From contig PBCY01000020.1 in NCBI GenBank assembly GCA_002717245.1, forward strand, positions 13,482-77,481: a stretch of DNA of 64,000 nt, in the 5' to 3' direction. The stretch comes from Pelagibacteraceae bacterium (GTDB lineage: Bacteria > Pseudomonadota > Alphaproteobacteria > GCA-002720895). The position numbers and the translations under genes were made by a program. The notes below the pieces were generated by a model that saw nothing but the letters and a program-made list of their open reading frames with translations, was not told the origin of the DNA and did no database searches. Position 1 is the stretch's first letter; each line of letters starts with the position of its first letter. Positions 1 to 2,121 of this stretch are shown here, in pieces.

Positions 1-347
1 ATCCCTTTTAAAGTACCCCCTTCGGCACTGTCTTTTGTTTTTTTTTCAACAGATTTTTCTTGAGGCAAAACTTTTTTTACATCAATTTTTTTTTTAATTT
101 TTTTTTTAGCTTTTTTTTTAAGTTCTTTAATTTCAGGTATTTGTTTTTTTATAATTTTTTCTTTTTTAATAGATTCTTTAGGTGCCTCTTCGATATTTCC
201 AATAGCAGATAAGGTTATTGTAATTCGCTCTTCTTTTTTAAAAAGATTAATGTCAAAATCATTAAGAAAAAAAACAATGTAAACATGTAATAAAATTGAT
301 AAAAAGAAAGCAAAATTTAACGTCCAAATACTTGTTTTTTTTTCCAT
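1..347 (-). CDS. TonB/TolA-like periplasm-spanning protein, partial (C-terminus outside window)
   Basis: Own translation from ATG at 347: MEKKTSIWTLNFAFFLSILLHVYIVFFLND... then a Lys/Pro/Glu-rich linker; follows exbB-exbD-exbD on the same strand. Confidence 0.7.
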   Translation of the reverse strand, partial: MEKKTSIWTLNFAFFLSILLHVYIVFFLNDFDINLFKKEERITITLSAIGNIEEAPKESIKKEKIIKKQIPEIKELKKKAKKKIKKKIDVKKVLPQEKSVEKKTKDSAEGGTLKG

Positions 348-348
348 T

Positions 349-744
349 TTATTTTTTTACGTAATTAGTTTCTACCACTACTTTTTTTATTTTTTCAGTT
401 TCTAATATTTTTAAAACTTTTAAAAAGTATTCTGAAGGTGTTTCAGCATCTATTTTTAAAGATATTTCGCTTGGTTTTCTTGCTCTAATAATTTCTAAAT
501 AGTTACTCTTTTTTAGTTCTTTTTTTCTATTTTGACTGTCGATAAAAACTTCTCCATTTTTTTTTACAATAATTGTTAAAAAAGGCGTTAAAGGATCATT
601 TTTAATTATAGATTCTGGTATATTAATTTTATGTGGGTCAATTTTAGTTATTGTTCCTGCTAACATAAAAAAAATTAACATTAAAAAAATAATGTTAATT
701 AGTGGAATCAAATTGATTTGTTTAATTTTTTTTTTTGTAGACAT
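349..744 (-). CDS. exbD: ExbD/TolR family protein (first paralog; TM Asp replaced by Asn)
   Basis: INLIPLINIIFLMLIFFMLAGTI aligns with the ExbD TM segment; tandem with a second ExbD and ExbB. Confidence 0.85.
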   Translation of the reverse strand: MSTKKKIKQINLIPLINIIFLMLIFFMLAGTITKIDPHKINIPESIIKNDPLTPFLTIIVKKNGEVFIDSQNRKKELKKSNYLEIIRARKPSEISLKIDAETPSEYFLKVLKILETEKIKKVVVETNYVKK

Positions 745-746
745 TA

Positions 747-1154
747 TTATATATTTACCAATTTAATATTATCTGTACCAGCAAGCCTAACTTCTTCTAT
801 AAGTCTTATTACATTTTGTACAGGAATTTTTTTATGACTTTTAATTAAAATAGTTTTTTTTGAATCGTTTTTAATACTATTAATTATTTTTCCTCTAATA
901 TTATCAATATCAATTTTTTTATTATTTAAATAAATAAAACCTTTTTCATTTAAAATTATTACAATTGTATTTTTTTTACTTTCTATCTGTATAGACTCAC
1001 TGCTATCTAAATTAACTTCTATTGTGCTTTTTTGAATAAATGAGGTTGCTAGCATAAAAAAAACAAGTAAAAGAAAAACTATATCAATTAAAGGAGTAAT
1101 ATTAATTGATATTAATTCCTTTTCTTCTTTTTGATAAAAATTATGGGTTTTCAA
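747..1154 (-). CDS. exbD: ExbD/TolR family protein (second paralog, Asp retained)
   Basis: ISINITPLIDIVFLLLVFFMLATSF, canonical ExbD/TolR TM motif. Confidence 0.9.
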   Translation of the reverse strand: MKTHNFYQKEEKELISINITPLIDIVFLLLVFFMLATSFIQKSTIEVNLDSSESIQIESKKNTIVIILNEKGFIYLNNKKIDIDNIRGKIINSIKNDSKKTILIKSHKKIPVQNVIRLIEEVRLAGTDNIKLVNI

Positions 1155-1157
1155 TTT

Positions 1158-1814
1158 TTATTTTTTAAAATTTAGCAGAGTATTAGTTCTTACAACGGTA
1201 TCATTTATTTTATCTCTTGTATTACTAATTTTATTTTCGAAAAGATGATACGCAGCTAAAGCTGGTATAGCAATTGCAAGTCCAAATGCAGTTGTTAAAA
1301 GAGCTTCCCATATTCCCCCAGCTAGTAATGCTGGATCTATTTGTGAACCAGCTTTTTCTAAATTTAGGAAAGCTTTTATCATTCCAAGAACAGTTCCGAA
1401 TAAACCTAAAAGTGGGCTAATACTTGCTACAACTTCCAACCCTCCAAGGTAATTTTCTAAATTTCTTATTTCTTGAGAAATGATTCTTGAAATTTCAGCT
1501 TCTCTTGATTCTTTATCAAATCTTCTATCATTTTTTGTAATAATAACTACTTCTATAATTCTTGCTAAAGGGTTTTTAATTTTTTGTATATCGGTTAAAA
1601 GTTTTTTCGCATTACTACCATTTAATTTAGTTAAAATTTCTTCAATTTTATTTGTTCTTGATAAAGCCGCAGCAAAAAATTGTATTAATTTAATGAAAAT
1701 TATTGCAAAAGCAAATATAGAAAAGCCAAGCAAAATAAACATTACAGGACCTCCCTTTGCTAAAAGATCTAAATTGTTTAGGTTATCTAAATTTATGAAT
1801 TCTAATATATCCAT
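1158..1814 (-). CDS. exbB: MotA/TolQ/ExbB family proton channel
   Basis: SPLLGLFGTVLGMIKAF and EALLTTAFGLAIAIPALAAYH motifs. Confidence 0.92.
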   Translation of the reverse strand: MDILEFINLDNLNNLDLLAKGGPVMFILLGFSIFAFAIIFIKLIQFFAAALSRTNKIEEILTKLNGSNAKKLLTDIQKIKNPLARIIEVVIITKNDRRFDKESREAEISRIISQEIRNLENYLGGLEVVASISPLLGLFGTVLGMIKAFLNLEKAGSQIDPALLAGGIWEALLTTAFGLAIAIPALAAYHLFENKISNTRDKINDTVVRTNTLLNFKK

Positions 1815-1842: not shown

Positions 1843-2121
1843 TTATTTCATACAATCTTCAATCATCTTTGATCTACTTTTAGATAGTTTTATTTCATCA
1901 ATCTCATTTTCGATATTATAAAAGTCAATCATTGTATCATCAGTTTGAAGCATTTCATTTCTATCTTGATTGATATTTAACTTTGTTTCAATATTACGAT
2001 TAGCATCTTTAAGACAAATTTTATATTTTTTACTTTGTTGATTATATTGCAAAGTATTAAAATTTTGTCCGCATGATACAATTAAAAAAGATAAAGATAT
2101 AATAAAAATACTTTTTTTCAT
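1843..2121 (-). CDS. Small putative lipoprotein, unknown function
   Basis: Signal peptide and lipobox (LIVSCGQ); 28 bp upstream of exbB, same strand. Confidence 0.6.
   Translation of the reverse strand: MKKSIFIISLSFLIVSCGQNFNTLQYNQQSKKYKICLKDANRNIETKLNINQDRNEMLQTDDTMIDFYNIENEIDEIKLSKSRSKMIEDCMK

Follow-up and report, generated by a model that had tools for sequence, protein, structure and literature searches.

Close to one end of the window, by which is meant the whole 64,000-nucleotide stretch of DNA that was analysed, four minus-strand genes lie in the order exbB-exbD(D)-exbD(N)-tonB, with 2 bases separating the two exbD genes. The features are as follows.

3..347, minus strand: TonB, N-terminal part; the gene runs past the window end
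349..744, minus strand: ExbD-1 (exbD-N, the Asn-type second ExbD), 131 aa; PF02472, 67.2 bits
448..450, minus strand: codon of ExbD-1 Asp99, the counterpart of Asp107 in the periplasmic RAD motif of E. coli ExbD
694..696, minus strand: Asn17 codon (AAC) of ExbD-1, aligned with E. coli ExbD Asp25 and TolR Asp23
747..1154, minus strand: ExbD-2 (exbD-D, the Asp-type first ExbD), 135 aa, TTG start; PF02472, 103 bits
816..818, minus strand: codon of Gln113 in ExbD-2, a position at which 95% of first copies have Gln
834..836, minus strand: codon of His107 in ExbD-2, at the site of the periplasmic Asp of classic ExbD/TolR and second copies
1083..1085, minus strand: Asp24 codon (GAT) of ExbD-2, equivalent to E. 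coli ExbD Asp25
1158..1814, minus strand: ExbB, MotA/TolQ/ExbB family (PF01618), with the motif GGIWEALLTTA

The products of exbB, both exbD genes and tonB all score above Pfam cut-offs, and both ExbDs are full-length members of PF02472, for which the curated cut-off is 25.4 bits. The ExbD-1 reading frame reads MSTKKKIKQINLIPLINIIFLMLIFFMLAG, with AAC as the codon of Asn17, and that of ExbD-2 contains ISINITPLIDIVFLLLVFFML, with GAT as the codon of Asp24; both residues align to Asp25 of E. coli ExbD by HMMER comparison with solved ExbD proteins (6tyi, 7ajq). The coordinates and residues given for the pair in the preliminary description held up on re-reading. The conserved transmembrane Asp of this family (Asp25 in E. 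coli ExbD, Asp23 in TolR) is needed for function. ExbD-2 has this residue and ExbD-1 lacks it, such that ExbD-1 is an ExbD homologue and not a canonical proton-carrying ExbD. A transmembrane helix is predicted at residues 12-31 of ExbD-1, followed by an ExbD-like periplasmic domain, and single-chain models of both copies, of moderate confidence (pLDDT 68 and 73), combine a transmembrane helix with an alpha/beta periplasmic domain of the ExbD type. The best PDB matches of both models are ExbD periplasmic domains (E 5e-3 and probability 1.0 for ExbD-1; E 3e-6 for ExbD-2).

Judged by its gene content, the operon is a Ton motor. ExbB, ExbD and TonB are encoded together, the window ExbB retains both channel Thr residues and the equivalent of Glu176, and the gene downstream of the pair is a true TonB (PF03544, 44.8 bits), the C-terminus of which was read beyond the window, at locus L005. 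The genome also encodes TonB-dependent receptors (TBDTs), with three TBDT Plug domains, none of them beside the operon; no TBDT adjoins the operon in the window genus copies, unlike in many gammaproteobacterial relatives. A gliding motor of the AglRQS type does not fit this arrangement, as tonB follows the ExbDs and a TBDT follows in many relatives. Directly upstream of exbB, a small putative lipoprotein with a lipobox-like ..SCGQNFNT.. is encoded at 1843..2121 on the minus strand; it is found in all four genus copies (the window, L003, L011 and L012) at 91-97 aa, and the window copy has no Pfam match. On the other side, a convergent MFS-like transporter gene (L005, 1..825), which by eye resembles the oxalate/formate antiporter group, ends beside tonB in the genus copies.

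The window genome is a metagenome-assembled genome (MAG) of 1.14 Mb, 90% complete and 6% contaminated. The same region occurs in it a second time, on the short contig C13 (L003, L004), which likewise encodes an Asp/Asn pair and whose ExbD proteins are 73-79% identical to those of the window, in line with contamination of that extent by a related strain. Two further genomes of the genus carry the Asp/Asn pair, as do an ALOHA MAG and the single-cell genome AG-464-G09 (L015), which may duplicate those two. Four genomes or strains of the genus have thus kept Asn where E. coli has Asp25, with its codon varying synonymously between AAC and AAT. Among the genus copies dN/dS is 0.09-0.14 for ExbD-1, 0.10-0.22 for ExbD-2 and 0.06-0.10 for ExbB; ExbD-1 is under purifying selection, with a dN/dS of about 0.1.

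The pair had been treated in the preliminary description as a local feature, and it instead proves to be a widespread operon type. The surveys covered Pseudomonadota and counts were taken from matches listed by score, so the prevalence is a lower bound. Beyond the genus, a contig scan with its ExbD-1 turned up Asp/Asn pairs in Methylophaga, Thiomicrorhabdus, Zhongshania, Paraglaciecola, Ectothiorhodospira, Nitrincola, Thalassolituus, Thiocapsa, Methyloligella, Filomicrobium and others. That scan used the peptide NLIPLINI, which itself includes the Asn, and its 31 loci, being biased towards Asn, were left out of the fixation count. In 96 genomes of the class, ExbD matches were grouped into tandem pairs with coordinates as the sole criterion; of the 19 pairs fetched, 8 were Asp/Asp and 11 Asp/Asn, with the Asn always in the second gene. 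A search of the phylum with a second-gene profile added at least five Asn and at least two Asp second genes, and a gammaproteobacterial search with a first-gene profile added at least seven Asn and at least one Ser. Taking the coordinate-paired set, the two profile searches and the four genus copies together, the N-type lineage has Asn in 27 of 30 residue-unselected loci of Alpha- and Gammaproteobacteria among the matches listed, the remainder being two Asp and one Ser. The proposed check, whether orthologs of ExbD-1 mostly carry Asp, was thus run and answered in the negative: across a deep subfamily, Asn is close to fixation. One of the Asp exceptions (L097) is nested inside the Asn clade and is probably a reversal, the other (L113) is sister to that clade, and the Ser-bearing second ExbD (L128, 1094..1495, minus strand) is nested within it. 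With such members of the N clade carrying Asp or Ser, Asn cannot be an absolute requirement. Asp occupies this position in the first copy of every pair with a readable column, and neither an orphan first copy nor an unpaired non-Asp ExbD was seen among the matches listed in the Pseudomonadota surveys. Tandem ExbDs are in themselves common and often Asp/Asp; that a tandem ExbD always means Asp/Asn was rejected, the eight Asp/Asp pairs surveyed being unrelated to this type.

The ancestry of the two copies was examined with a tree of 139 ExbD domains built from 122 columns, from which the Asp/Asn column had been removed; with only about 120 columns, deep support is limited and many forks are open. 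All but one of the 46 second genes fall in a single clade (SH-aLRT 94). The exception, that of L086, lies outside this clade in the free tree, and the likelihood rises when all 46 are constrained to one group (AU p 0.77). The first genes form a separate cluster (support 90), from which the first gene of the window genus is excluded, on a long AT-rich branch. Ordinary ExbD, TolR and the Asp/Asp tandem pairs fall elsewhere in the tree. The ExbBs that partner Asp/Asn pairs have the motif GGIWxALLTTA in common, and placing them in a single clade is compatible with the data (AU p 0.877). A recent duplication in the window lineage was rejected, as in the window genus the second gene falls among second genes of distant taxa and not with its neighbour. 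In the tree, the nearest single ExbDs are LDIAPLID-type genes with Asp, which probably belong to Vibrio-type TonB2 systems (TtpC-ExbB-ExbD-TonB).

Comparison of 46 first, 46 second and 47 classic sequences, column by column, points to complementary changes in the two copies. The transmembrane Asp is present in 100% of first copies and 100% of classic sequences, and in 4% of second copies, 93% of which have Asn. Conversely, the periplasmic Asp equivalent to E. coli Asp107 is present in only 15% of first copies, along with 95% of second copies and 87% of classic ExbD/TolR. At the position of E. coli Glu113, 95% of first copies have Gln and second copies show a scatter of residues; at that of Tyr112, the centre of the ExbD homodimer interface (PMC10771500), first copies have Val or Leu and most second copies Ala. 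On this alignment, each copy has lost a conserved residue that its partner retained, a reciprocal loss that would be expected of subfunctionalised heterodimer partners and that separate homodimers would find hard to explain. The gene arrangement is similarly constrained. The exbB gene lies 5' of the pair and tonB directly 3', and among 59 pairs of the Asp/Asn type, the two genes are separated by 10 nt or less in 55 and overlap or abut in 33, typically as ATGA, a spacing that suggests coupled translation and a near 1:1 ratio of the products. Natural exbD-D/exbD-N fusions were not found among the surveyed loci; a candidate two-domain reading frame at L043 was rejected, since at 155 aa it is only as long as one ExbD.

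The reading favoured here, with a probability of roughly two in three, is that ExbD-D and ExbD-N form an obligate heterodimer within an ExbB pentamer, with ExbD-D supplying the only proton-binding carboxylate, and that this complex drives TonB. The preliminary description had proposed such a heterodimer. Co-occurrence of the two copies, their near-invariant order and coupling, and the reciprocal loss of residues now argue for it; its assembly, placement in the pore, rotation, single proton site and proton count, as well as the asymmetry of the motor, we infer. One ExbD-D and one ExbD-N would sit in the pore and together power TonB, and hence the TonB-dependent receptors. The neutral Asn of ExbD-N would face the ExbB Thr ring much as a permanently protonated Asp, and ExbD-N would contribute the canonical periplasmic Asp that ExbD-D has lost. 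Both Thr residues, equivalent to Thr148 and Thr181, are present in every alignable ExbB of an Asp/Asn operon. In accepted models the pentamer or the dimer turns 36 degrees per proton, with two Asps alternating (PMC12215075, PMC12905483), a cycle that cannot apply unchanged because the pair has one Asp. Under 5:2 rotation, the single Asp might instead bind and release a proton at every one of the five Thr sites of ExbB, such that one turn would cost five protons, not ten, and driven half-steps would be interspersed with passive ones. A single TonB D-box strand is bound asymmetrically by two ExbDs, in a 2:1 arrangement (PMC10907165); therefore the two ExbD positions differ from each other even in a homodimer, in keeping with specialisation of the two copies. 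For the wider proposition, that widespread Ton motors contain an obligate Asp/Asn heterodimer with one proton site per pore and divide proton work from periplasmic work on TonB or peptidoglycan, the odds appear about even.

The most serious alternative, although an unlikely one, is that homodimers of ExbD-D constitute the motor, with ExbD-N in an accessory or regulatory role, its exchange into the complex giving idle or throttled motors and so setting, for example, the active fraction. ExbD-D does have all the residues of a proton-carrying transmembrane helix, and E. coli complexes with subunits of the D25N type are inactive, so D/N or N/N assemblies could represent an off state (PMC11658791). 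In those experiments ExbD(D25N) was inactive and failed to cross-link, but only the homodimer was examined (PMC11658791), and the result is no test of a heterodimer. Against ExbD-D as a self-sufficient motor stand its loss of the periplasmic Asp that classic ExbD and ExbD-N keep, the lack of orphan first copies among the matches listed, and the near-universal adjacency of the genes with translational-coupling spacing, which favours a constant ratio over regulation.

It is considerably less probable that each ExbD homodimerises in its own ExbB pentamers, with the Asn version as a static anchor. The periplasmic domains of ExbD do homodimerise in E. coli and Serratia (PMC10771500, PMC10907165), but each operon has one exbB, an N/N homodimer would have no proton site, and the interface position is complementary in most pairs (Val/Leu with Ala) and not duplicated.

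A relocated proton site, in which an acid at E. coli position 18 or altered ExbB residues restore a second site, is more doubtful still. Most second copies carry an acidic pair (DDN or EEN) about two helical turns cytoplasmic to the Asn, at position 18 (L016-L044), where classic ExbD is hydrophobic (Ile, Val or Leu). ExbB Glu176 is moreover replaced in over half of the systems, by Gln, Val, Leu, Thr or Lys, and nearly all systems with Gln or Val there also have the acidic residue before the second-copy Asn; in most systems the acidic pair goes together with loss of Glu176. This co-occurrence is best regarded as a lead, not a result. Neighbouring lineages are not independent. The window lineage reads QIN, without the acid, and keeps Glu176, yet has Asn, and Glu176 varies in single-ExbD systems too, which weakens its loss as a specific companion change. 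Lastly, sequencing error, a strain-specific mutation or gene decay has next to no chance of explaining the Asn despite the MAG origin of the window genome, because three other genus copies (with a synonymous codon change), a single-cell genome and many distant relatives have it too, and the dN/dS values and ortholog surveys turn the earlier judgement that decay was unlikely into its exclusion.

Like ExbB5-ExbD2-TonB of E. coli and Serratia, the window system has an ExbB with both channel Thr residues, ExbDs with a transmembrane helix and periplasmic domain, TonB and TBDTs; unlike them, it has two non-identical ExbDs, one without the transmembrane Asp and the other without the periplasmic Asp. 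Tandem ExbDs are known in Sphingobium, Xanthomonas and Riemerella. The tonB1-exbB1-exbD1-exbD2 cluster of Sphingobium SYK-6 similarly combines two tandem exbD genes with exbB and tonB, and neither exbD could be deleted, but both of its ExbDs keep Asp25 (PMC8599685). The Asp/Asp pairs surveyed here are unrelated duplications located elsewhere in the tree. Two-TolR motors occur in AglRQS and in PVC bacteria (PMC3169522, PMC12204202), and also combine one TolQ-like subunit with two different TolR-like partners; these act on gliding or unknown transducers and not on TonB, and are not known to carry Asn at the Asp position. Within the open-access literature, to which the search was confined, no description was found of an Asn ExbD or an Asp/Asn pair, nor of a MotB heterodimer with a single Asp.

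As a natural and conserved one-Asp pair, the operon offers a test of whether Asp alternation is needed in rotary motors of the MotAB/ExbBD/TolQR family; if the heterodimer reading is true, two alternating Asps would not be needed in a 5:2 rotary motor. The pair would further allow labels and mutations to be placed in one ExbD of the pore at a time, and it settles the role of each copy, a distinction hidden in homodimers. For annotation, a PLIN-type ExbD beside a PLID-type ExbD should be treated as a real motor subunit and not as a pseudogene.

The neighbourhoods of the operon in relatives show some further regularities. Among about 20 flanked loci, a related neighbour lies at a median of about +2.6 kb, on the same strand in 19, and is a TonB-dependent receptor in the two members scanned; in ten loci an FMN-dependent dehydrogenase-type gene follows further on. 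Five loci (L034, L037, L038, L040 and L043) share a conserved gene 5' of exbB, the L034 copy of which encodes 165 aa with no Pfam match, and in L038, L040 and L043 a conserved gene after tonB encodes an ABC solute-binding protein of family 5, as judged from the L043 copy, which was the one scanned.
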